Source: Watersipora subatra | Taxonomy: Eukaryota > Bryozoa > Gymnolaemata > Cheilostomatida > Watersiporidae | DNA length: 64,000 nucleotides | Assembly: GCF_963576615.1 (NCBI RefSeq) | Contig: NC_088708.1 | Location: forward strand, 55,043,196-55,107,195 | Direction: 5' to 3' | Shown here: positions 2,480 to 59,019 of the stretch, piece after piece | Numbering within the stretch: position 1 is the stretch's first letter | How the letters are laid out: every line of letters begins with the position of its first letter | Program-made: the position numbers and the translations under genes | The notes under the pieces: model-generated | The model's input: only the letters and a program-made list of their open reading frames with translations | Told to the model about the DNA's origin: nothing | The model's database searches: none

Positions 2480-3660
2480 CTATTTTTTCACAAAGCAATG
2501 TCACTCTGTTAGCACACTGAGCAATGAGTTCAAGTAAATATCTGACGATATAGCATATAGAACCACTATCCACTGTAATATCAGCATAAAAAACCTTATT
2601 TTAAACGCCTATCACTCTGGGTAGCAAATCAACTTGAAACATAACGCATAATGCAAATTAAACAGTTTTGCTTTCTCAATCAATTCAACCCATTTTGAAA
2701 ATTGTTTAAATTAACTAGACTAGTTAGTAACTTGGAAGGGATTTTAATTCTAGCTCTAGTTTTTAATGCAAATGATATCTAAAGTAAGGCTTGTGAGCTA
2801 AATACAACCAGATTTAAACGGGGTTTTCTTGTAGCTACCTAGAAGAGTTCTGGTACAATGACATTTTTTCAAAAGATTGAAATTGGTGAAAAAGGCCATT
2901 TATCTTTCATGCACCACAATTTTGTTGACCTATGACCTTTTTTTACCTTTGTGAAGCTTATCAGAAACTGCAATGCATGTGATCAGCCTGCTGTAAGATT
3001 TCAATATCGTTCTACTAATCCTGAATGTTGTAGCTATAGTTTTGAATAAAGTACCCCTAATGCTTCAACCTCCTGCACTTATATATCATAGCTAATTGCT
3101 TGACAGAAACGAAAAATGTTTTGCTTGTTCTGATGGCAAAACATTTATTTATATGCCAAAACCTCCAAACAAATTTACAAATAGGCCTAAATTAACTGTC
3201 AACTTTGCTACTTGATTTAACTGTCACAACTTGCTCCACCCATTAGACAACTTTCATGTTTATTACAAACCAGAAAATAGAATTCAAATGCCTGTTCAAC
3301 ATTAGAGCAAAGGCTTACAACCTTTATCAAACTAGGCTTAGTGTTATATGTCTATGTTTCAAAGTAGAGCATTTTAAAGTATTTAGTGTGTAGGAAAACA
3401 TGTGATTATAAGTTGCTTTGCTTTTTATTCAAGCACTTCAGCTTATGTTGCGCTATCTCTATTCCAATAACTGACATATAATGCATACTGGAGAAAACCC
3501 TAGATGAAGTTGAAGCTTGAAATATGACTACAAAAATTGTTTGCAAAAGCGGCATTGAGACATAATTTAAAAAAAGACATTGTAAACAGAAGACTAACGT
3601 TCAGCAAAAATTAAAATCCTTTTCTTCTAAAGATTTGGAGTTAAGAAAATTAATAATGGA
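2480..3660. other. No gene recognised
   Basis: AT-rich unique sequence with dense stops in all frames. I see no recognisable coding motif or repeat. Confidence 0.5.
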
Positions 3661-3668
3661 GTTATAAT

Positions 3669-4697
3669 GTTAGTTCTGATGTCAGGTCTATAACAGTGTC
3701 AGCTGTGATGTTAGTCTGATGTCAGGTCTATAACAGAGTCAGCTGTGATGTTAGTCTGATGTCAGGTCTATAACAGTGTCAGCTGTGATGTTAGTCTGAT
3801 GTCAGGTCTATAACAGAGTCAGCTGTGATGTTAGTCTGATGTCAGGTCTATAACAGTGTCAGCTGTGATGTTAGTCTGATGTCAGGTCTATAACAGTGTC
3901 AGCTGTGATGTTAGTCTGATTTAAGGTCTATAACAGTGTCAGCTGTGATGTTAGTCTGATGTCAGGTCTATAACAGTGTCAGCTGTAAAGTTAGTCTGAT
4001 GTCAGGTCTATAACAGTGTCAACTGTAATGTTAGTCTGATACCAGGTCTATAACAGTGTCAACTGTAATGTTAGTCTGATGTCAGGTCTATAACAGTGTC
4101 AGCTGTGATGTTAGTCTGATTTCAGGTCTATAACAGTGTCAGCTGTGATGTTAGTCTGATGTCAGGTCTATAACAGTGTCAGCTGTAAAGTTAGTCTGAT
4201 GTCAGGTCTATAACAGTGTCAACTGTAATGTTAGTCTGATACCAGGTCTATAACAGTGTCAGCTGTGATGTTAGTCTGATGTCAGGTCTATAACAGAGTC
4301 AGCTGTGATGTTAGTCTGATGTCAGGTCTATAACAGTGTCAGCTGTGATGTTAGTCTGATGTCAGGTCTATAACAGTGTCAGCTGTGATGTTAGTCTGAT
4401 GTCAGGTCTATAACAGTGTCAGCTGTGATGTTAGTCTGATTTCAGGTCTATAACAGTGTCAGCTGTGATGTTAGTCTGATGTCAGGTCTATAACAGTGTC
4501 AGCTGTAATGTTAGTCTGATGTGGGGTCTATAACAGTGTCAACTGTAATGTTAGTCTGATACCAGGTCTATAACAGTGTCAACTGTAATGCTAGTCTGAT
4601 GTGAGGTCTATAACAGTGTCAACTGTAATGCTAGTCTGATGTGAGGTCTATAACAGTGTCAACTGTAATGCTAGTCTGATGTGAGGTCTATAACAGT
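3669..4697. repeat. 40-bp-period minisatellite, about 25 copies
   Basis: The unit contains ggtctataacagtgtcagct followed by gtgatgttagtctgatgtca. Copies line up exactly every 40 bases from 3681. Variants alternate (agctgtgatg, aactgtaatg, agctgtaaag; gtcagg, accagg, ttcagg, gtgagg), and the last three units share the gtgagg/ctagtc variant, which indicates local unit amplification. Confidence 0.97.
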
Positions 4698-17734: not shown

Positions 17735-20245
17735 TTAATATGCTGTATATGTAGTATGTTGTATGTGTAGTAAGCTGTATGTGTAGTATGCTGTATGTGT
17801 AGTATGCTGTATGTGTAGTATGCTGTATGTGTAGTATGATGTATGTGTAGTATGCTGTATGTGTAGTATGCTGTATGTGTAGTATGCTGTATGTGTAGTA
17901 TGCTGTATGTGTAGTATGCTGTATGTGTAGTGTGCTGTATGTGTAGTATGCTGTATGTGTAGTATGCTGTATGTGTAGTATGCTGTATGTGTAGTATGCT
18001 GTATGTGTAGTATGCTGTATGTGTAGTATGCTGTATGTGTAGTATGCTGTATGTGTAGTATGCTGTATGCGTAGTATGCTGTATGTGTAGTATGCTGTAT
18101 GTGTAGTATGCTGTATGTGTAGTATGCTGTATGTGTAGTATGCTGTATGTGTAGTATGCTGTATATGTAGTATGCTGTATGTGTAGTATGCTGTATGTGT
18201 AGTATGCTGTATGTGTAGTATGCTGTATGTGTAGTATGCTGTATGTGTAGTATGATGTATGTGTAGTATGATGTATGTGTAGTATGCTGTATGTATAGTA
18301 TGCTGTATGTGTAGTATGCTGTATGTGTAGTATGATGTATGTGTAGTATGCTGTATGTGTAGTATGCTGTATGTGTAGTATGCTGTATGTGTAGTATGCT
18401 GTATGTGTAGTATGATGTATGTGTAGTATGATGTATGTGTAGTATGCTGTATGTATAGTATGCTGTATGTGTAGTATGCTGTATGTGTAGTATGATGTAT
18501 GTGTAGTATGCTGTATGTGTAGTATGCTGTATGTGTAGTATGCTGTATGTGTAGTATGCTGTATGTGTAGTATGCTGTATGCGTAGTATGCTGTATGTGT
18601 AGTATGCTGTATGTGTAGTATGCTGTATGTGTAGTATGCTGTATGTGTAGTATGCTGTATGTGTAGTATGATGTATGTGTAGTATGCTGTATGTGTAGTA
18701 TGCTGTATGTGTAGTATGATGTATGTGTAGTATGCTGTATGTGTAGTATGCTGTATGTGTAGTATGCTGTATGCGTAGTGTGCTGTATGTGTAGTATGCT
18801 GTATGTGTAGTATGCTGTATGTGTAGTATGCTGTATGTGTAGTATGATGTATGTGTAGTATGCTGTATGTGTAGTATGCTGTATGTGTAGTGTGCTGTAT
18901 GTGTAGTATGCTGTATGTGTAGTATGCTGTATGTGTAGTATGCTGTATGTGTAGTATGCTGTATGCGTAGTATGCTGTATGTGTAGTATGATGTATGTGT
19001 AGTATGCTGTATGTGTAGTATGCTGTATGTGTAGTATGATGTATGTGTAGTATGCTGTATGTGTAGTATGCTGTATGTGTAGTATGCTGTATGTGTAGTA
19101 TGCTGTATGTGTAGTATGCTGTATGTGTAGTATGCTGTATGTGTAGTATGCTGTATGTGTAGTATGCTGTATGCGTAGTATGCTGTATGCGTAGTGTGCT
19201 GTATGCGTAGTGTGCTGTATGTGTAGTATGCTGTATGTGTAGTATGCTGTATGTGTAGTATGATGTATGTGTAGTATGCTGTATGTGTAGTATGCTGTAT
19301 GTGTAGTATGATGTATGTGTAGTATGCTGTATGTGTAGTATGCTGTATGTGTAGTATGATGTATGTGTAGTATGCTGTATGTGTAGTATGATGTATGTGT
19401 AGTATGCTGTATGTGTAGTATGCTGTATGTGTAGTATGCTGTATGCGTAGTGTGCTGTATGTGTAGTATGCTGTATGTGTAGTATGCTGTATGTGTAGTA
19501 TGCTGTATGTGTAGTATGATGTATGTGTAGTATGCTGTATGTGTAGTATGCTGTATGTGTAGTGTGCTGTATGTGTAGTATGCTGTATGTGTAGTATGCT
19601 GTATGTGTAGTATGCTGTATGTGTAGTATGCTGTATGCGTAGTATGCTGTATGTGTAGTATGATGTATGTGTAGTATGCTGTATGTGTAGTATGCTGTAT
19701 GTGTAGTATGATGTATGTGTAGTATGCTGTATGTGTAGTATGCTGTATGTGTAGTATGCTGTATGTGTAGTATGCTGTATGTGTAGTATGCTGTATGTGT
19801 AGTATGCTGTATGTGTAGTATGCTGTATGTGTAGTATGCTGTATGCGTAGTATGCTGTATGCGTAGTGTGCTGTATGCGTAGTGTGCTGTATGTGTAGTA
19901 TGCTGTATGTGTAGTATGCTGTATGTGTAGTATGATGTATGTGTAGTATGCTGTATGTGTAGTATGCTGTATGTGTAGTATGATGTATGTGTAGTATGCT
20001 GTATGTGTAGTATGCTGTATGTGTAGTATGATGTATGTGTAGTATGCTGTATGTGTAGTATGCTGTATGTGTAGTATGCTGTATGTGTAGTATGCTGTAT
20101 GTGTAGTATGCTGTATGTGTAGTATGATGTATGTGTAGTATGCTGTATGTGTAGTATGCTGTATGTGTAGTATGCTGTATGTGTAGTATGCTGTATGTGT
20201 AGTATGATGTATGTGTAGTATGCTGTATGTGTAGTATGCTGTATG
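17735..20245. repeat. 16-bp satellite array with 672-bp higher-order repeat
   Basis: About 157 head-to-tail copies of gtatgtgtagtatgct. Point variants (atgatg for atgctg, gcgtag for gtgtag, gtgtgctg for gtatgctg) recur at a fixed offset of 672 bases, that is 42 monomers: for example 18771 and 19443, 18963 and 19635, 19171 and 19843, 19261 and 19933. Two copies of this higher-order unit fill about 18.70-20.03 kb. A shorter 160-bp duplication lies at about 18240-18470. Long Tyr/Thr/His/Ile frames on the minus strand (over 800 codons) are repeat artefacts, because the unit contains no stop in that direction. Confidence 0.97.
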
Positions 20246-21829: not shown

Positions 21830-24800
21830 GTAATCCAAAAGCAACATCAACTCAGAGAATTACAGTTTCCTTGTTTCTCAGTCTAACTTATTAAGCACTA
21901 TATAGCATAGCATACCGTATGCTTTTGAGGACTTCTTGTGAGCAAATTAAAGAGTGGCAGAGCGCAATGCGGAAACAACTACCCAGATTCTGTAATTGTT
22001 ATTAAGAGCTCTTGTGTTTCTTGAGACGCAGTTTTTTTCAGAAAAAACAATATCTAATTTATCGAGGTTGTATTAGTTGTCTGCTGCCCTGGATGGGCTG
22101 TAGACCTCCTCGTCGTTTCCAGTTTTGAGATCTTCATTACTCCGTTCTAATATTAACTAGTTGTGAATAATCAATCTTTGTGTGAGGTTTTTGAATCTCA
22201 TCCGTAACTCTCTCTTCTAATGACATAAGATCCACACCTGCGCAACTGAACGGTCATCAGTCAAAGAATCCGTACACTCGGGTATAATTATAGCCGTACA
22301 CAATGCCGTGGTTTCATGCATCTTATGAGCCTAGATACCTTTTCTCTTCTCATGATGTCAGAGTACAGCTCATGGCTGAGTCTTCAAAGATAGAAAATAC
22401 TAGCCCGCTTTCAAAAAATAAATTTGAACTTTTCAAAACATTCGAATAAAGACTTTGCTGATTTCTGATTTGGCTTGTAAAGTCACCATATTATCTACAA
22501 ATCTGATCTGATAATTAAAGCTCAGGAATGACAAAATGGAGATCGCTGTACAGATATCTGTCACACGCTACTTTTAGTTTGGTCATTACTATAGTGGAAC
22601 AAGAGGATAAAATATCCAAGTATGCCATGGTAACCTAGACTGCAGCTTATTTCAAGTGGTGAGAGCGTAGCTCTAGATAATCACTAAGGTCCAACCCAAG
22701 AGCAAACAAATAACTTCATTTTGCCTTGAAGGATGTCGCTAGATGTTCAGACAAAGCGGGCTGCTCATAAACTGGTCAGGTCTTTTCCGGACTCTGCTTA
22801 CATGCTTATGCTTGAGTAAAATAAGGACTTTTAAAAAAATTATAAAATTACTTTATGGAACTAGAATGAGAATCTTTTTTATAACAAAAGCCGTGTCTGT
22901 CCGTCTGTCTGCCTATTAGTCTGTCCTTCGTCTGTTCGAAGCCACACTAAAAGCATTTGGAAAAAAGGTTTCCTCGCATGGGACTTGAACTCAGGTGTGC
23001 CCTTTTGCAAAGTATGCCACTAACTGCACCACTCATCCACCTCACTTAATAGAAGAATGATTGTGTTTATATTTATTACACCTGATGATTTTTCATGGCG
23101 CTCCGCACTGCCAGTATACTAGTAAATATAAAATGTATTCATTGACAGAATTTTATATCTACAAAACCAATTTCAATATTAGCCTTTGCTGACAGGCATT
23201 GGTTTAGTTTACATGCAGGTATTGTTAAATATGAAAACTATCAGCCTCACCAGTTATAAAAGATGTCATTGATATATTTTATACCACTAGTAACTGTTTC
23301 ATGTACTCTAATAGATACGTATGTAAATTTTATAAACTAAAGGAGCATTATTTATGATTTTCGAATGTGAGTGAGGAGTTAACTTTTTAAATATCTTAGC
23401 CTAACTTTGTAATCACTATGAAAAAGTTATGTTCTTGTTACGCTACTTTAAATGCAATATTCGGTCAGCTATTGATATGACATCCAAAATATCCATACTA
23501 AAGTTCACCCAGAAAGAAAGACCACTCAGAAATAAGGACCACCAAGAAATGAGGGGCACCCTTAAATGAGCTATTTGCAAAAAGTTTCAATTCTAACAAA
23601 ACCTCTCGATCAACTAAAACCTTTTGTATGACATTTGGGTTAAATTATAAAGGAAGATTGAAAATGATTATTAAAGGCTTTAATGTTTCCTGTTTGAAAT
23701 TCTGTCATATACTCTGTGGACAACTTACGTTTCTAGGTTGCCTCCTGACTCAACACATATGTATGCATCAGTAGACAACATGGCTACAGTTTAGAGAGCA
23801 TTTGGATCTGTTCTACACTATAGTGTTTAATTAATTGCGAATATTATCGATAGGTCATTGCGCTTCCTTTCAAGCTAAGTTTTTCCATGAATGGCTAGAT
23901 TTTGAGTGCCTAGAAGAATGAGAGATCTGTCAAGATAAATCGTTACGCTAGGATTTGAAATGAGTTTTATATTAAGGTGATCTCACTTTCTATCACAGCG
24001 TTTTTACAAATGTGTAAGTTTTTGCCTTTTTGCTGTTTTTGCTTTCATAATTCGAGAGAACAGAAAAGGTATGAATGTGGGACAACATTGTTGCATTTAT
24101 TGTAACCTTGGATAGATGTTAACATGATGAAGCATTTTCTCACTACATTTCAGCTTGTCTCTTCTCTGTTTTGTCAGCAGTGGTTTGCTGTCGGCCGGTA
24201 GTTACAATCTAGACACGAACGAGGTCTGCCAGAAGAGTCGTAAGGCAAACATGTCCAAAAAGAATCCATGCCGAAAGCAACCCCAACTGAGACGAGAGGT
24301 AGAAATGGGAAAACAGTTAGCCATTGAAACTTGTCAACAGAATTTCGCTGATCATAGATGGAATTGCACCACAACTCATTCATCTTTTCGGCGCATAATG
24401 AAAACAGGTGAGAGATAATACAACACACTTGTGAAGCAAGCAAGGACTAAACATGACATTTTACATGGCTTATCAAAGCTTGAGATATAAGGCTATATAA
24501 AAACCGTGCAGTCTTACATGGCTCTCTATAAACAAAACAATTTTATTTCATGATATAGTCATCATTTTCTTGCGTGGTTTTAGAACAAGTTATTAAATCA
24601 AATAGCCGTTATATCATTCATCTAGAATTAAATCAATCATTTATCTGGGGCAAACTGAATCATTGATTCAGTTTGCAGCAAATATGCTCATTTAGTAGCT
24701 GAAGTAAAAACTAAAAACTGGGCCAGTTAATAATTATATCCTAGCACTGTAGCTGATATTATGATAAGAACTTCACTCCAATATATCATTAGAAATCACA

Positions 24801-30800: not shown

Positions 30801-33800
30801 GCAACACAATTCGATTTTCCAAGAACCGTAATTAATGCAGTGAACTTTATAGAAAAAAACTGAATGAATAAGTAGACGATTTGTTACCTAAGGTCACCGC
30901 TGTCAACTTCTGTCTGGAAAACCGTTTCTTTTGGCCCTTGTAAGGTCTCTAATGAAAATGCTAAGCATACCACTCAGTTCTTCCTCCCTAATTAATCGTT
31001 ATACAATTCGAGATAAGATGAATTGATCTGTAGTTTCAATAAGAAGGACATGAGAATGAATACTTATATAAAGTCTTGATTAGCATATGCAACTGGCTTG
31101 AGTATAGCCATATATTTCACAGATGGCATGCCTAACACCGTTTGTATCCGGCCAAACCCTTGGCAACAAGCAGCAAGCTTAGTCATATATTCTATCTTTT
31201 TTGTCACAAAATCTCGAAAACTTTCATGTCCAAACATAAAAGACCTAGTATTTGTCCTACCAACAACGCTTGTAGCGCGCAACCAGTTGTAGTTAACTTG
31301 CTATGAGTTGTTCTATACAATAAGATTTAAAAACATGATACCAAAAAATTGCTTCCTTTGACCATTTGGATGCAGATAACACCAAAAACACTATCTCAGA
31401 GTGAAATGTTTGAAATATATTCCACGTATTTATTGTCTCTCGTCATATTCTACATTTAGTTGTTGGCGGTAAAATTGATTACATTTTGTAAAACAACAGG
31501 TTTAAACCAAGTAGTATTTCATTGTCTCAAATAAATTACAGAAAAATCATTTTGCATCAGCAGGTCTGGCTATTGATCAGAGATTTTCACATAGCCTGGG
31601 CTTCAGAAGCTGGTACTATCCGCTGTTAGTCCTGAATGTCACAAAGAAACAATAATGCTAGTCAGGCACCACCAAGGCTGCTTGGATTTGCTAAAACCAA
31701 GTTTCATATAAGTCACATCACATGTTGTATTCCATCGTGAAGCTTGTATGCTAAATGTGAAGTTAAAATTGTAAAATAACTTTAAACTCATAAAAACAAT
31801 ATCGAGGAGGTTTGCACTTTTAAGAATTATTGATTCAACAAACAGGTTAGTTGTCTAGTCAGCAGTTATAGTTGACAAGAGATGACAACTAACCTATAGT
31901 TGACAAATGACAGAATAGGGAGAGAAATGACAGCCACGTCAGAGGTAACAGTCGGAAGCACGGTAGCAATAAATTTCACCATATCGCGGCTTTGTTTGCT
32001 CTTTTCCATAATTAATCATTGTAGTCGATCGTAATAAGGCGTCGTGTTCGTCTGATAAGGACTGACAATATTAATATTGATACTTGGCTGGTTGCTGCAG
32101 GCTAAATATTCTCATAGCGAATGCAATTAAACATCTCATAGATAGAGAGAGCAAGCAAATTTTCTAATAGGCGAGTGTCACTTCTCCGTGCATTTTTTAG
32201 TTCCGGAAGGTGGTAAACAGCAAAAAGGAACCAGCCTGATAGATTCTCACTACTCACATGTACATAAGCAGTCAAATACTAACAGCAATCTGTTTGGTTG
32301 CGTAGAATGGTTTTTAAGTGTATAAGGATTCAACTAATAACAGCAATATGTTTGGTAGCATGAGATGGTTTCCAACCTAATGAGCATTCAAATAGTAACA
32401 GTAATAACTGCAATATGTTTGACAGCATGGGGCATAAGTTATTTTGACATGGTTACCTATGCAGGTTTGTCTTTATGGCCACTTGAAACGATTAAACTTC
32501 TCATGTATATCTACATGTATATATTAAGTATAGCTCCATTTAAACTTATATGCTCCAATAATTTCAAATATAGGCTTTATATGATAATTTATTATAATTC
32601 TATTAGGTTTGTGCAAAGAAATATTTGTGTAAATAAATCTTTTTGAAAATTTATCTGCATTGCTATTTAGCATTTATATGAAATATTACATCGTATATAG
32701 CAATTGCAAGAAGGGATTTCGATCTGAAAATGATAAACTTTTAAACTTTTCATCGTTTCAGTACAGCTGAGATGTATCAGCTGATGCTGATGATTATAGT
32801 TTTATTTCACATCTTGCTCTTAATTTTGGTTTAAACTAAAAATCATGGGCATGGTTTACAGATATTCTTTTTTGACATTCACAGATCGAAACAATTAAAC
32901 GGTTGTAGACTGTAGTACATATGGTGTATATATAGTACATATGGTGTATATATAGTACATATGGTCTATATATAGTACATATGGTCTATATATAGTACAT
33001 ATGGCTCTCATACTGTCAATGCATACGCCATGAAAACCTAATATCGCTAAAATATTACTTTTCTAAATAAGGCATAGAAAGTTATCTCTTGGTGATAAGA
33101 AGCTGACATTATCCAACACATACTTAATCAAACTGCTATCAAACTTTCATGGTTTCCAGATGACAAAAATGGTATTTATTAAGAATTCAGAAAGTTTGCT
33201 GATCGAATAGTTAATATTGTTATGTTGGCTATCTTCAAATTCAACTTATCATCAGTAATCATTATATTCCATACTCTTACACAAGAGTGACTGTTTAGAT
33301 ACGTAGTCATTATATTCCACACTCTTGCACAAAAGAGACTGTTTAGATACAGTAGTCATTATACTCCATACTCTTGCACAAGAGAGACTGTTTAGATACG
33401 TAGTCATTATATTCCATACTCTTACACAAAAGAGACTGTTTAGATACAGTAATCATTATACTCCATACTCTTGCACAAGAGAGACTGTTTAGATACGTAG
33501 TCATTATATTCCATACTCTTACACAAAAGAGACTGTTTAGATACAGTAGTCATTATACTCCATACTCTTGCACAAGAGAGACTGTTTAGATACGTAGTCA
33601 TTATATTCCACACTCTTACACAAAAGAGACTGTTTAGATACAGTAGTCATTATACTCCATACTCTTACACAAAAGAGACTGTTTAGATACAGTAGTCATT
33701 ATATTCCATACTCTTACACAAAAGAGACTGTTTAGATACGTAGTCATTATATTCCATACTCTTACACAAAAGAGACTGTTTAGATACGTAGTCATTATAT

Positions 33801-36800
33801 TCCATACTCTTACACAAAAGAGACTGTTTAGATACAGTAGTCATTATACGCCATACTCTTGCACAAGTGAGACTGTTCAGATACGTAGTCATTATATTCC
33901 ATACTCTTACACAAAAGAGACTGTTTAGATACAGTAGTCATTATACTCCATACTCTTGCACAAGAGAGACTGTTTAGATACGTAGTCATTATATTCCATA
34001 CTCTTACACAAAAGAGACTGTTTAGATAAAGTAGTCATTATACTCCATACTCTTGCACAAGAGAGACTGTTTAGATACGTAGTCATTATATTCCATACTC
34101 TTACACAAAAGAGACTGTTTAGATACAGTAGTCATTATACTCCATACTCTTGCACAAGAGAGACTGTTTAGAAAAAGGTTTCTCACCTACTAATGCATAT
34201 TATTTTATACTGAGAGTTTTTGTGGTTAGGTAAAAACTCATTTATCAAATCCACCCCTTCGGTGTCTGCAGAAGATATTTGAGGCACCTGGCTCAATTTA
34301 ATTAACACTTTTAATCATGCTTGTTTTTAATAGAGACAAATATATTTCTGTTAACTACCCTGCCAGTTGAAACTCGTGTCTCCCATAATGCACCCTGCAA
34401 CTATAAAAAATAATATAATGTGTAGATATAGTTTGTATATTAGCCTAAAGAAAATAATAATTTCTTTTGAAAACAGTGTTTACTATAACAAGAGCAGTGT
34501 CCATCCATCTGCCCGGACATGATCTTTATTATAATAAGAGCCATTTGTCTGCCCGAGCATGATCTTCTCATAATAAAAGCCCATTTGAGTGCCCAAAGCC
34601 TCGCTGAGAGGTTGCAAAAGAAATTGCTTGCAATAGGATTCAAACTCCTGACTTTCAGTTTAGTAGACCGACCCTCTCCCACCTGTACAAACTTACCATA
34701 TGTTGAAAAGATTGTGCGGTTAGTTATTTCACTTGACAATCTCTTACGGCGCACCAGATCACCAAAGGACTAGGTTTGATAAAAAGGGACTATATCTACT
34801 GCTGACAAAAAAGAACAGCAATCAAGTTTAACCAATCAAAAGCATAATTGTTAGGGCTATTTAGTTTAGTTGGTCTGGACAAATTACTTGTTGTAACATC
34901 ACAATTTTGTTCCCAACTGAAAAATGGTTTCATAGCTGAGATACTCACACTTGTCTGAAATGACACTAATAGCGTTTTAGTTATAAAAATTGTCAACTTT
35001 TGTTCTCGAGTGAAATGACTAATGTTGTTAAAATGCTAGACTTAAATTTTAAGACATTCCGTCTCAAATAATTTTAGTCAGAAATCTATTTTCTGCGTTT
35101 AATATGTTATTATAGTACAAAGTTGCATGTTGTTTCAGTAATGGGTCTTACCTTTTCTAAAGATGAGCTTACACAAAAGTTTTGTTGATTTTATCAGAAA
35201 GTATCGGTATTTTTTTACCATTTGCGATTGTTTTTGGTGTTTGAGACAGTTTGATGGCCAAGACGTTCTAAAATTAAAATTAATAAAGCTAAACTGCGGT
35301 TAAAATGCTCAAATTAAGCAGAAGTGTGATTATGACGTCTATAGTTGCAGAGACTGACAGAACAGAGACGTGTAAAGCTGTAACTTGAATGCAATAGTCA
35401 ATATCAGCTATCGCAACGCTTGCAACTAATCACATCAATTGGCACACATTTTTCTTCTGAGCATTTTAATTGTGATCAGGTTTTTATCAATTTTACTCTT
35501 GAAACATCCTGGCAGTCAGATCACCTCATACATCAAAACAATCTCAAATCATAAAACATATCGATTGTTAAAAATATGTTAATAAATAAACAGATTATTG
35601 TTAAATACACTATAGTTTTATAAAGAATAATATAGAAAGAGAACTCGATACGCTATGTGTATTGCAAATTTACAATAGCCTATATATAATATATATACTA
35701 TTATTATATGAAATATAAAGAGCACTTGGCTGTTAGTCAATCACTACAAATTTGTTTCAAGAATATCTATATTTTCTAAATATGTAATTATTTTCTCACT
35801 CAATTCAAGTGACTGGTAATGTCTACTCAAACTCTCAGGTCTCTAACTAAAGACCTGGGACTTTCAGCGCTCAACTACAGATCTTAGCCGTTCTTAATAA
35901 CAAGCTTTTGTGCAACTTGCTTGAGTTGATTGTTGCCGGTATTTAAGCAAAGAACATTTGATGTGCGGGTGCTATTGCACCCAATGCTCCATTGACTACT
36001 GGAACTACAGTTATTTCTATATGTCTGCAGCTTCCAATTTTCTTTCCGAGTGGGAGATATTTCTCCACTTTTTTCTTTTCTTTGTTGGCTATATTGTAGT
36101 CTCTGAGTGCTGATGTATCCATTGCAGTAGCCCTTTTGCTCTCCTTGTTCGCCACCGTGATATATGACTGATTTGCCAAGATGTGCTCATCTGTCTAGAT
36201 ACAGATATCAAACCAGTCGCATGTCGTGGTGGTAGACAAGGAGAGCAAGAGAGCTGCTACTATTAATACAGCAGCACTCAAAGACTACAATATAACCAGC
36301 AAAAAAAGGAAAAAGAGAAAAAATATCTCCCACTTGAATAGAGGATTGAAAGGTGCCCGCATATAGTCACAACTGTAATTCCAATAGTCATTGGAGCAAT
36401 GGGTACCTAGCAAGGGAGAGCAATAGCACCTGCACATCAAATGTGGCTTACCCAAATACTGGCAATATTCAACCCAGGTCAGTTGCAGAAAAGCCCGCTA
36501 TTAGTGAGGGCTCAAATTTCCGGTTTTTGGTAGGAAACCCGAGCTCGAGTAAACATTAGCATCCAGTTGGATTAACCGGAGTGAGGAAAAAATTATATGT
36601 ACACCGGCATATATAAATTTGTGGGCGCAAGTAAATGTATATTTAAAAAACTGTTGTATTTATCTGTTGGTTTCTGTTAGCATACTATTTATGCAGGATT
36701 ATTGCCAATGTCTCTGTGTTTATGCAAAGCCTTATTAAAATTTCACTGACACACATACGATTTTATTTGTTTGATAGCTCATCACCCCAGCTTATTATGT

Positions 36801-39639: not shown

Positions 39640-39648
39640 CAGTTAGCC
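39640..39648. repeat. Target-site duplication, left (cagttagcc)
   Basis: Nine bases, cagttagcc, directly abut the left inverted repeat. The identical nine bases lie at 42732-42740 just outside the right inverted repeat. Confidence 0.85.
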
Positions 39649-40159
39649 CATAGACCTATTAACTATACTAGACTGGGCAATCCAATGCATCACGGCTCAG
39701 CATTGTGTCCTACTTAAATAGCCACATTCTTTGCGACGTAACGTCAACGCTTTGTTCGCTTGCAGCTGGTCAGGCAAGCGAGTCATCATTGTTTACATTG
39801 AAAAAATGACAGAGAAAGCTTTGCTGCCACATGTAATTTGACATAACTACTAAAGTACACAAGATATTGGTTTAAAATTTTAGATGCAAAGCTTATACAC
39901 TATGCATTTCCTACCCTGCAAATTTGTAAACATAAAGTTGAATATTTCATATGTAAAGTGCCAGTAAAAATGTATATTGATCTATTAAAAAAATATTGCA
40001 AAATTATCAATGTTGCCCTATGCTATGGGCTAACATGTCAGATAGCTAGGTGTACAAACTGATTTCAAATGCATACACACTGGTAAATGGTACACTGATT
40101 CCAGTCTGCCATGAATATAAATGTTGAGTCTTAGGTGTTATGCAAACAGCATCAGAAAA
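39649..40159 (+). repeat. Left terminal inverted repeat, about 510 bp
   Basis: It is the reverse complement, with scattered mismatches, of about 42234-42731. Matching blocks include gcgacgtaacgtcaacgctt, cttatacactatgcatttcc, catttcaaat-type AT blocks and, at the inner edge, tatgcaaacagcatcagaaa. Confidence 0.92.
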
Positions 40160-40228
40160 TAGGTTTATGTTCACTTTGTTGTTTTGTTCACTTTGCCTAG
40201 TCCAGGCCATAGTTTTAAGTAGGAAGCC

Positions 40229-42180
40229 ATGGAGAGTGGAGCAACTACCAGCACTGGAAATGATTCGAAGGTAAATTTTACTCCAATTATTTTCAAGTGT
40301 GGTTGTGAGAGGTACCTAGATATGAAGAGCAAGAAATCTTGCGGGTTTTTCCGAGATATGCATACAAATAATAGTTTTTTTCCAAAATGTTTTCTTGAAG
40401 TTCATTGCTGGCACTAATATTTGAAAAGTTGCTTCGCACAAAGAGGTGCCAACCACGAAGTAGACGAAGTGTTGCCCATTTCATGAAGTTTTTCACCACC
40501 ATGGCAGGTGGACATAGGCTAGTAAATGAGTATGGTGATGGCTGTGCTATATTTAGAATTGTAGTTAAACCCAACGAAAAGATTTTTACTTTATGATGGT
40601 CTCACAAGAATGCAATTATTTACTGATTATTTTGCAGGACAAAAGTAAAATTTTTTGCTGTGCATTTGGTTGTTCTAATACCCCAGCAAAAGATAATTAA
40701 CTCAGTTTTCACACCTTTTCATCGGAAGAAAAACACCTAGACATATGTAACAAGTGGATAGACGCCGTGAAACGTAAGGACTGGATGCCTTCCAAATACT
40801 CTGCGCTCGGCAGTGATCTCCTGCAGACCTTCTGGTCTGACGATGGCTGCCATGCTAAAGCCTACTGCTGTACCAAGGGTATTTGATTCTCTGCCAAAAT
40901 ATTTACAACCGACTCAACTAAAACATAGCTGACTGTTATGCCGACCAACACTATCTAAATCATCTCCACCAGACCGAGATGAGCCAGTCCTGGAACCTTC
41001 ACTTTGCTATGAAGAGCCAACAGCCGCCAAGCAATCTGAAGAGATCATTCCCGACCCTCTACATAAGCGTACCTCGTACCTTGGAATAGGGAATTAAATT
41101 TTTCAAACATTTCGAGAGGCCAAGTATCTACTTCTGTACAAGCTTGGACAAGAGCATATAGAAACACTGCCCTCAAAGATTCAGGCCAAGGGAGGTTTCA
41201 ACAATAATCCAGATGTCTGTAGCTTCAAATCTGCACTGAAAGCTCGACTAGTGAAAACAGACATCACACCTAGCACGAGTGCTAACTGTCTTGATTGTGA
41301 TAGCCCAGATGGCTCCTGCTCCCTACTTCTCTCATCTAAACGAAGAAAAATTCATGTAGAAAGTGACGATAACTTCCATGATTATTTGGAATCAAGCGAA
41401 CGGCTGGAAATCGATCTGTCAAAATCTGTCTCGGACATAGTGGAGTACATTAGTAGGTAAATACAACCAATTCCTCCAAATTTTCTACAAAACAAGAGAT
41501 CTGGCACACATTGCAGCCTTGCTGCATGTGCTAAACTGCATGACTGCCCATATTGTGGTACATGATTTAGGTATGTACATGTATTTTGGTATTAGCTACT
41601 TTCACTTATTGTTAGTGTATAGAACAGATATACAGGTAGCAGAGTGGCTTGAAATAATACTGCAGCAAATCAGTGAGATGTAGGTAAATTTATTTTACGG
41701 TTGATACATATACTTTTTATAATAATATTAACATATGATATTTATTTAGCAGGTTATGTGGTACGGAGCTTAAAACTCAACTGCAATGATTGCACCAGCT
41801 TTAGAGCCTCCTGTTCAGGTTTACGCACCAGGGATGATGCGACGCTAATCAGTGTAAAAGATAGAGGTGGTCTGTTTACACCTCATCCTGTCATCACAAA
41901 GATATGTCTAGGCTCAGAACAGATCATTTGGCAGTGCGTCAACTTACAAGGAATCACTGCAGACATACACAAGCTGGTAGTCACTAAGACTCTTTTATTG
42001 GTTTTACAAAGCAATTTGCATCAGGAATTTCCATCCTCAAGTCACAGCGCAGCGTTAGTTAAAACTATCACATCCAGATATGTCAGAATAAGAATTCACC
42101 ATGAGGCTACAAAGGTAGCAGCTAACAAGAGTAATCTTAGATCAAAGCTCAGCCGACTGGTCGTCTTTAGTCATGTGTAG
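40229..42180 (+). pseudogene. THAP-domain P-type transposase, degenerate and intron-containing
   Basis: A candidate first exon (40229-40270, MESGATTSTGNDSK, donor gtaaat) joins an acceptor at about 40638 to give DKSKIFCCAFGCSN, the start of a C2CH THAP finger. A TAA interrupts it after AKDN, then LSFHTFSSEEKHLDIC and KDWMPSKYSALGS follow. The expected later Cys and His of the finger appear lost. A mid-piece (41251-41460) ends DIVEYI; an inferred splice (donor gtaggt near 41452, acceptor tatttag near 41748) leads to GYVVRSLKLNCNDC, KDRGGLFTPHPVITKICLGS and RYVRIRIHHEATK, matching the THAP9/P transposase C-terminal region. Probably inactive. Confidence 0.75.
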
Positions 42181-42233
42181 CCTGTCACAATATGTCTAGA
42201 AAAGTGTACCATTTGTCGTTTGTTTTCTACGAT

Positions 42234-42731
42234 TTTTCTGATGCTGTTTGCATAACACTTAAGGCCCAACATTTATGTTCATGGCAACTGCAATTAGTGT
42301 ACCATTTACCAGTGTGTATGCATTTGAAATCAGTTTGTACACCTAGCTATCTGCCATGTTAGCCCATAGCATAGGGCAACATTGATAATTTTGCAATATT
42401 TTTTTAATAGATCAATATACATTTTTACTGGCACTTTACATATGAAATATTCAACTTTATGTTTACAAATTTGCAGGGTAGGAAATGCATAGTGTATAAG
42501 CTTTGCATCTAAAATTTTAAACCAATATCTTGTTTACTTTAGTAGTTATGTCAAATTACATGTAGCAACAACGCTTTCTCTGTCATTTTTTCAATGTAAA
42601 CAATGATGACTCGCTTGCCTGACCAGCTGCAAGTGAACAAAGCGTTGACGTTACGTCGCAAAGAATGTGGCTATTTATGTAGGAAACCGTGGCTTCGCAT
42701 TGCCCAGTCTAGTATAGTTAATAGGTCTATG
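42234..42731 (-). repeat. Right terminal inverted repeat, about 500 bp
   Basis: Mirror image of 39649-40159. A few mismatches cluster near 42690-42700 and at the inner end (ggcaactgcaattag against the left copy's version). Confidence 0.92.
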
Positions 42732-42740
42732 CAGTTAGCC
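42732..42740. repeat. Target-site duplication, right (cagttagcc)
   Basis: Identical to 39640-39648. P-superfamily elements usually make 8-bp duplications, so one of the nine matching bases may be coincidental. Confidence 0.85.
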
Positions 42741-57295: not shown

Positions 57296-59012
57296 TAGTA
57301 TCTGATACTAGAGATGAACCTGTACACTCATAGCATACACATGTGATACTAGCTGATACCAGAGATGAACCTGTACACTCCTAGCATACACATGTGATAC
57401 TAGCTGATACCAGAGATGAACCTGTACACTCATAGCATACACATGTGATACTAGCTGATACTAGAGATGAACCTGTACACTCCTAGCATACACATGTGAT
57501 ACTAGCTGATACCAGAGATGAACCTGTACACTCATAGCATACACATGTGATACTAGCTGATACTAGAGATGAACTTGTACACTCATAGCATACACATGTG
57601 ATACTAACTGATACTAGAGATGAACCTGTACACTCATAGCATACACATGTGATACTAGCTGATACTAGAGATGAACCTGTACACTCATAGCATACACATG
57701 TGATACTAACTGATACTAGAGATGAACCTGTACACTCCTAGCATACACATGTGATACTAGCTGATACTAGAGATGAACCTGTACAATCATAGCATACGCA
57801 TGTGATACTAGCTGATACCAGAGATGAACCTGTACACTCATAGCATACACATGTGATACTAACTGATACTAGAGATGAACTTGTACACTCATAGCATCCA
57901 CATATGATACTAACTGATACTAGAGATGAACCTGTACACTCATAGCATACACATGTGATACTAACTGATACTAGAGATGAACCTGTACACTCATAGCATA
58001 CACAAGTGATACTAGCTGATACTAGAGATGAACCTGTACACTCATAGCATACACATGTGATACTAACTGATACTAGAGATGAACCTGTACACTCATAGCA
58101 TACACATGTGATACTAACTGATACTAGAGATGAACTTGTACACTCATAGCATCCACATATGATACTAACTGATACTAGAGATGAACCTGTACACTCATAG
58201 CATACACATGTGATACTAACTGATACTAGAGATGAACCTGTACACTCATAGCATACACAAGTGATACTAGCTGATACTAGAGATGAACCTGTACACTCAT
58301 AGCATACACATGTGATACTAACTGATACTAGAGATGAACCTGTACACTCATAGCATACACATGTGATACTAGCTGATACTAGAGATGAACCTGTACACTC
58401 CTAGCATACACATGTGATACTAGCTGATACCAGAGATGAACCTGTACACTCATAGCATACACATGTGATACTAACTGATACTAGAGATGAACCTGTACAC
58501 TCATAGCATACACAAGTGATACTAGCTGATACTAGAGATGAACCTGTACACTCCTAGCATACACATGTGATACTAACTGATACTAGAGATGAACCTGTAC
58601 ACTCATAGCATACACATGTGATACTAGCTGATACTAGAGATGAACCTGTACACTCCTAGCATACACATGTGATACTAGCTGATACTAGAGATGAGCCTGT
58701 ACACTCATAGCCTACACATGTGATACTAGCTGATACCAGAGATGAACCTGTACACTCATAGCATACACAAGTGATACTAGCTGATACTAGAGATGAACCT
58801 GTACACTCATAGCATACACATGTGATACTAGCTGATACTAGAGATGAACTTGTACACTCATAGCATACACATGTGATACTAACTGATACTAGAGATGAAC
58901 CTGTACACTCCTAGCATACACATGTGATACTAGCTGATACCAGAGATGAACCTGTACACTCATAGCATCCACATATGATACTAACTGATACCAGAGATGA
59001 ACCTGTACATTC
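57296..59012. repeat. 51-bp-period minisatellite, about 33 copies
   Basis: The unit contains gatactagctgatactaga, gatgaacctgtacactcata and gcatacacatgt. Successive copies are exactly 51 bases apart. Variant units (catccacatatg, cacaagtg, ctcctagc) recur in blocks, for example about 57843-58030 and 58080-58270, indicating multi-unit duplication. Confidence 0.97.
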
Positions 59013-59019
59013 ATAATGT

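Follow-up and report, generated by a model that had tools for sequence, protein, structure and literature searches.

The window, a stretch of 64 kb from the 783.7-Mb genome (239 contigs) that was searched for related copies, contains a P-type element of 3083 bp at positions 39649-42731 (Table 1). The tips of this copy read CATAGACCTATT at the left end and AATAGGTCTATG at the right end. Its inverted arms matched in three segments of 401, 53 and 40 nt, with complementarities of 98%, 92% and 93%, respectively, which is far beyond chance, and the pieces together formed an inverted repeat of about 510 bp (511 bp in the left arm and about 498 bp in the right), with a 12-bp indel between the arms at repeat positions 34-59. 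The exact 9-bp duplication CAGTTAGCC directly abutted the tips CATAG and CTATG; one further occurrence of the 9-bp sequence was found on the plus strand of the window, at 24314. Elsewhere in the window, a 16-bp tandem repeat of about 157 copies (96% match) was observed at 17739-20245, with a strong strand bias (GC skew 0.69 at 18001-20000), and tandem arrays with units of 51, 40 and 97 bp were located at 57302-59015, 3667-4697 and 33253-34172, respectively.

Table 1. Features of the P-type element and its flanks, in window coordinates.
Feature	Position	Strand	Basis or remark
Left target duplication cagttagcc	39640..39648	.	9 bp, exact in window copy; 8 bp usual in the family
Original 5' tip (positions 1-98 of the repeat), specific to the 5' end	39649..39746	+	First 33 bp identical at both ends
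Subterminal motif TCCTACTTAA, from position 60 of the 5' end	39708..39717	+	Motif scan
413-bp extension, inverted copy of 3' subterminal region	39747..40159	+	Missing from the 5' end of four full-length relatives
19-bp filler with GTTCACTTTG	40160..40178	+	GTTCACTTTG recurs in the 5' sequence after the insertion
First exon of what was the transposase gene; ATG start, GT after it	40229..40270	+	By likeness to L051
Disrupted THAP exon, as far as the core deletion	40638..41072	+	Frame and Pfam comparison
Junction of the core deletion of about 1.55 kb	41072..41076	.	Alignment to L051
Open frame encoding the C-terminal domain of a TNP-like RNase H (PF21789)	41098..41457	+	Pfam
Last exon (GYVVRSL...KDRGGL)	41753..42180	+	THAP9_C match weak in the L051 counterpart
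3' arm of about 498 bp, the type that served as source for the extension	42234..42731	-	Arm comparison
3' copy of the subterminal motif, from position 48 off the end	42675..42684	-	12 bp nearer the end than the 5' copy
Right target duplication cagttagcc	42732..42740	.	Exact match to the left one

The only domain of the window copy above the Pfam cut-off was TNP-like_RNaseH_C (PF21789, E 9e-8). The THAP match lay below the cut-off (E 0.014), and the THAP exon carried one stop and a loss of frame; the same exon gave a THAP match of 1.4e-17 in the full-length relative L051. Alignment to L051 revealed that the catalytic core was absent from the window copy, the deletion having removed the HTH, the N-terminal part of the RNase H and most of the GTP-binding domain, and the counterparts of D230 and D303 fall inside the deleted part. 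Repeats of about 500 bp, CATAG tips and a broken coding body of THAP and P type, all reported in the preliminary description, were thus confirmed.

Full-length relatives were identified by comparing matches to the transposase core with matches to the last exon. A genome search with the Pfam model of the N-terminal RNase H part yielded 175 matches, deriving from several P-type families, and the best 51 of these were tested for proximity to 53 of 155 last-exon matches (mostly the strongest, with two added by hand and two on contig C78 omitted). Four of the best 51 core matches lay within 6 kb of listed last-exon matches, and these represented four full-length elements of about 4.2 kb with a P transposase core (L051, L052, L053 and L054). 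One further core match, partial and weaker (C1:15270279), also adjoined a last-exon match (C1:15269956). L051, L052 and L053 were mutually 99.3-99.6% alike over their alignable length, indicating recent spread, while L054, an older copy, was 89.5% like L051 and had stops in its frame. The terminal repeats measured 113 and 101 bp in L051 (82% identity, 33 bp perfect) and 128 and 101 bp in L052 (73% identity); self-comparison of L054 yielded a single 30-bp inverted pair. Copies with short inverted repeats, which the preliminary description had named as evidence against its own reading, were therefore present in the genome.

L051 exceeded the Pfam cut-off for THAP, Tnp_P_element HTH, RNaseH_N, GBD and RNaseH_C, i.e. 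the domain set of the P superfamily, with THAP, a P-type HTH and an RNase H split by a GTP-binding insertion; its last exon showed a weak THAP9_C match under the cut-off (E 0.011). Three frames of L051 matched no MULE model at E values up to 1, and yielded P/THAP families and one chance-level DUF7626. L051 could be aligned with the Drosophila P transposase structure 6P5A (E 1.6e-18), with D, D and E in this one full-length copy at the places of D230, D303 and E531, named as catalytic residues in PMC8230255. With the exons joined across three introns, as predicted from GT/AG and the reading frame, 887 residues were open in one of the three young copies; the frame was interrupted in the other two. 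The genome search for intact copies proposed at the outset hence recovered full-length elements, one of them with an open frame, but these have short repeats and lack the extension. Among the listed matches to the RNase H N-terminal model (PF21787), 17 lay on contig C8 at about 8-19 Mb, 16 of them with internal stops. Another P-type family is represented by L055 (C11:38704000-38709000), with nine listed core matches near-equal in score and a reported frame of 611-612 residues (552 residues from stop to stop in L055). The sequences suggest that this family spread recently, and a search for CA...TG tips found no ends of L055 within the 5 kb fetched.

The left arm was searched against the genome, giving 634 first-look candidates, 40 of which, including the window copy, were scored and listed. 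Twenty loci were fetched, and 14 had both ends; L012, L016, L017, L019, L023 and L025 were left out, their far end being incomplete. The 14 two-ended copies showed exact 8-bp duplications in 12 cases and 8 bp with one mismatch in two. Among 10 further copies represented by their ends only, eight had exact 8-bp duplications by script and one by eye (L074/L075), and one was ambiguous (L060/L061). The four full-length elements L051, L052, L053 and L054 likewise had exact 8-bp duplications, the last being read by eye. Excluding the window copy, exact duplications of 8 bp were thus present in 25 of 28 copies, 8 bp with one mismatch in two and an ambiguous duplication in one, while none had 9 bp. 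Target-site preference, judged from 25 duplications, was weak. The family norm is therefore 8 bp and the window copy the exception: the 9-bp duplication claimed in the preliminary description is exact in this copy, yet it is not a trait of the family. An 8-bp duplication, cagttagc, with one extra C at the left junction would explain the 9 bp, because the right flank continues with c and such a C would look like a 9-bp duplication; a true 9-bp cut in the window copy is conceivable, judged from this single copy.

By alignment, the window copy consists of L051 positions 1-98, an insertion of 432 bp, positions 99-1005, the deletion, and positions 2560-4214. The insertion lies in the 5' end and combines an inverted 413-bp copy of 3'-end sequence with a 19-bp filler; the deletion removed about 1.55 kb between L051 positions of about 1005 and 2560. 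Short direct repeats flank the extension. Since arms and body all aligned to one 4.2-kb element, a chimera of two unrelated elements or a nested insertion, raised in the preliminary description as a possible source of error, was ruled out.

Both junctions recurred elsewhere in the genome. The extension junction was found at 129 places with up to three mismatches and the deletion junction at 105, while reversed-pattern controls gave no matches for either. For pairing, 100 of the 129 extension and 100 of the 105 deletion places were used. A listed deletion junction followed within 2.5 kb downstream of 64 of the 100 listed extension junctions; the other 36 had none. A listed extension junction was likewise missing for 36 listed deletion junctions out of 100. 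These 36 deletion junctions include L009, L011 and L019, which are extended copies whose junctions had diverged or were unlisted. The unextended 5' junction, searched in two forms with up to three mismatches, was detected at four places, all of them full-length elements, three with the L051 form and one with a window-like form. Not one of the listed extension junctions (100 places) had any of the best 51 core matches within a distance of 6 kb. One copy (L021:3880-6510) had been rearranged further; its left arm runs into 3'-type sequence and its transposase fragment is inverted.

We conclude, with a probability of about 0.88, that the window copy is a non-autonomous, internally deleted member of the P superfamily, and that its long repeats arose when the 3' end was copied in inverted orientation into the 5' end of a founder. 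This founder would have derived from a short-repeat element of about 4.2 kb, having lost the catalytic core and taken up, inside its 5' end, an inverted 413-bp duplicate of 3' subterminal sequence together with the 19-bp filler. Probably, repair or replication switched template at a stretch common to both ends (GTCA..GCTTTGTTCACTT); copying may then have proceeded from the 3' end towards the interior before it returned to the first template, leaving the filler. Template switching around transposons with terminal inverted repeats in animals is discussed in PMC8277862. The founder line would have multiplied to some hundred copies or more, with 8-bp duplications, presumably moved in trans by the transposase of full-length copies.

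A close alternative concerns only the route. Ectopic gene conversion between the ends of different copies, which has been proposed by Marzo et al. for the extension of Galileo repeats (PMC3573991), may have placed the extension instead, and the long-repeat copies would be a derived subfamily all the same. The two routes have nearly identical end products, which the data barely separate, but the filler with its repeated GTTCACTTTG looks more like the outcome of template switching, and we regard gene conversion as a possible, though less likely, route.

The arms of 15 long-repeat copies, the window copy included, were compared. In the window copy, the outer part of the repeat (positions 1-98) had 7 mismatches in 85 positions and a 12-bp gap, and the inner part 12 in 410; the outer part was more diverged between the arms than the inner part in all 15 copies. 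It is chiefly this contrast that points to a later duplication of the inner part. A body-region tree of 17 sequences (L018, L021, L022 and L024, with fewer than 1000 aligned bases, were left out) separated 13 long-repeat copies from L051-L053 and L054. The tree is unrooted and by itself does not say whether long or short repeats are older, and loss of the extension by deletion, giving the short form, is conceivable. The full-length copies would then have lost 432 bp from a 5' arm with ancestral long repeats, by deletion between the direct repeats around GCTTTGTTCACTT that flank the segment. Such a history predicts the reverse of the divergence observed in the 15 copies; in addition, L051-L053 and L054, about 10% apart, carry the same sequence across the short junction, and the filler fits a copying event. 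We therefore consider ancestral long repeats improbable. From the unequal repeat divergence, the two short-repeat lineages about 10% apart and the filler, we infer a change from short to long, with the long repeats most likely a derived feature of the core-deleted subfamily.

The high similarity of the two arms had been taken initially as a sign of recent insertion. Over the 15 copies, mean differences were 0.041 between the arms within a copy, 0.034 between left arms and 0.038 between right arms of different copies, which ruled out arm similarity as an insertion clock. It does not date the insertion because the inner 410 bp or so look to have been duplicated once in the founder and then copied together.

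A distinct P-like lineage with long, Mutator-like ends and 9-bp duplications, as suggested in the preliminary description, is scarcely tenable: the window copy shows both features exactly, but 9 bp recurred in none of the 28 other copies (8 bp being exact in 25), full-length copies have short repeats and the domain content is that of the P superfamily. A Mutator-like lineage was likewise excluded by the 8-bp norm, the P domains and the failure of the L051 frames to match a MULE model.

The two ends of the element differ in the spacing of a subterminal motif, TCC[T/C]AC[T/A]TAA, whose first base is position 60 at the 5' end and position 48 at the 3' end, giving an offset of 12 bp. The motif TCCTACTTAA resembles the consensus of the 10-bp site of the Drosophila P transposase. 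Spacing was compared in 15 long-repeat copies and L051-L054, with L016 and L019 left out. The offset of 12 bp was present in 17 of these 19 elements, namely the window copy, 14 other long-repeat copies, L051 and L053; L052 had an offset of 27, due to a 15-bp insertion, and the 5' motif was not found in L054. The 10 copies represented by their ends showed an offset of 12 in two cases and of 5 in one, where the repeat was deleted in part, and seven were unreadable at the 5' end. The extension starts at about position 99 and therefore left the offset intact. In the Drosophila P element, the distances separating the 10-bp transposase sites and the 31-bp repeats are 9 and 21 bp, again a difference of 12 bp, and PMC7776569 likens this spacing to the V(D)J recombination signals (12/23). 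A single offset matching between the present family and Drosophila P could be due to chance. That the offset reflects a superfamily-wide rule for P elements, comparable to the 12/23 rule, and that the extended element outspread its parent through extra transposase-binding sequence, are doubtful propositions.

The family shares with the Drosophila P element the THAP, the HTH and the RNase H split by a GTP-binding insertion, with D230, D303 and E531 aligned, as well as 8-bp duplications, internally deleted copies and the 12-bp difference between the ends in subterminal-site spacing. Drosophila P is described with 31-bp repeats and a full length of 2.9 kb (PMC7776569), whereas full-length elements here have 4.2 kb, with repeats of about 101-113 bp in L051 and about 510 bp in the deleted subfamily. 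The zebrafish THAP9 transposon Pdre2 likewise has a CATA tip, 8-bp duplications and internally deleted copies, but differs in its 13-bp terminal and 12-bp subterminal repeats (PMC10983969). P elements and P-MITEs of Anopheles also have 8-bp duplications and derivatives that spread beyond the master; they differ in repeats of 27-31 bp and, for P-MITEs, in central regions unrelated to P (PMC1562414). A parallel in repeat structure is Galileo of Drosophila, also a P-superfamily element with long repeats (at least 600 bp), which were lengthened as inverted sequence was recruited within the repeat (PMC3573991), so that both features are already published; its duplications are mostly of 7 bp, some of 8 (PMC4168063). 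Unlike Galileo as described, all four full-length copies here lack the 5' extension. Within the open-licence literature, no long-repeat P-superfamily case was recognised outside Drosophila, which is a weak negative, and no paper on the P superfamily in molluscs was found. The window copy is accordingly assigned to a non-autonomous subfamily of the P superfamily which is not Galileo, as compared by description, and not a new lineage.

The present family illustrates a way in which a P-superfamily element can acquire long repeats, most likely by copying of one end onto the other in a deleted founder, and repeat length is for this reason a poor guide to lineage. Copies of the parent type and derived copies coexist in this genome, and their junctions are readable. 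With its 12-bp offset preserved, the family lends itself to a comparative test of the way in which P transposase brings unequal ends together.
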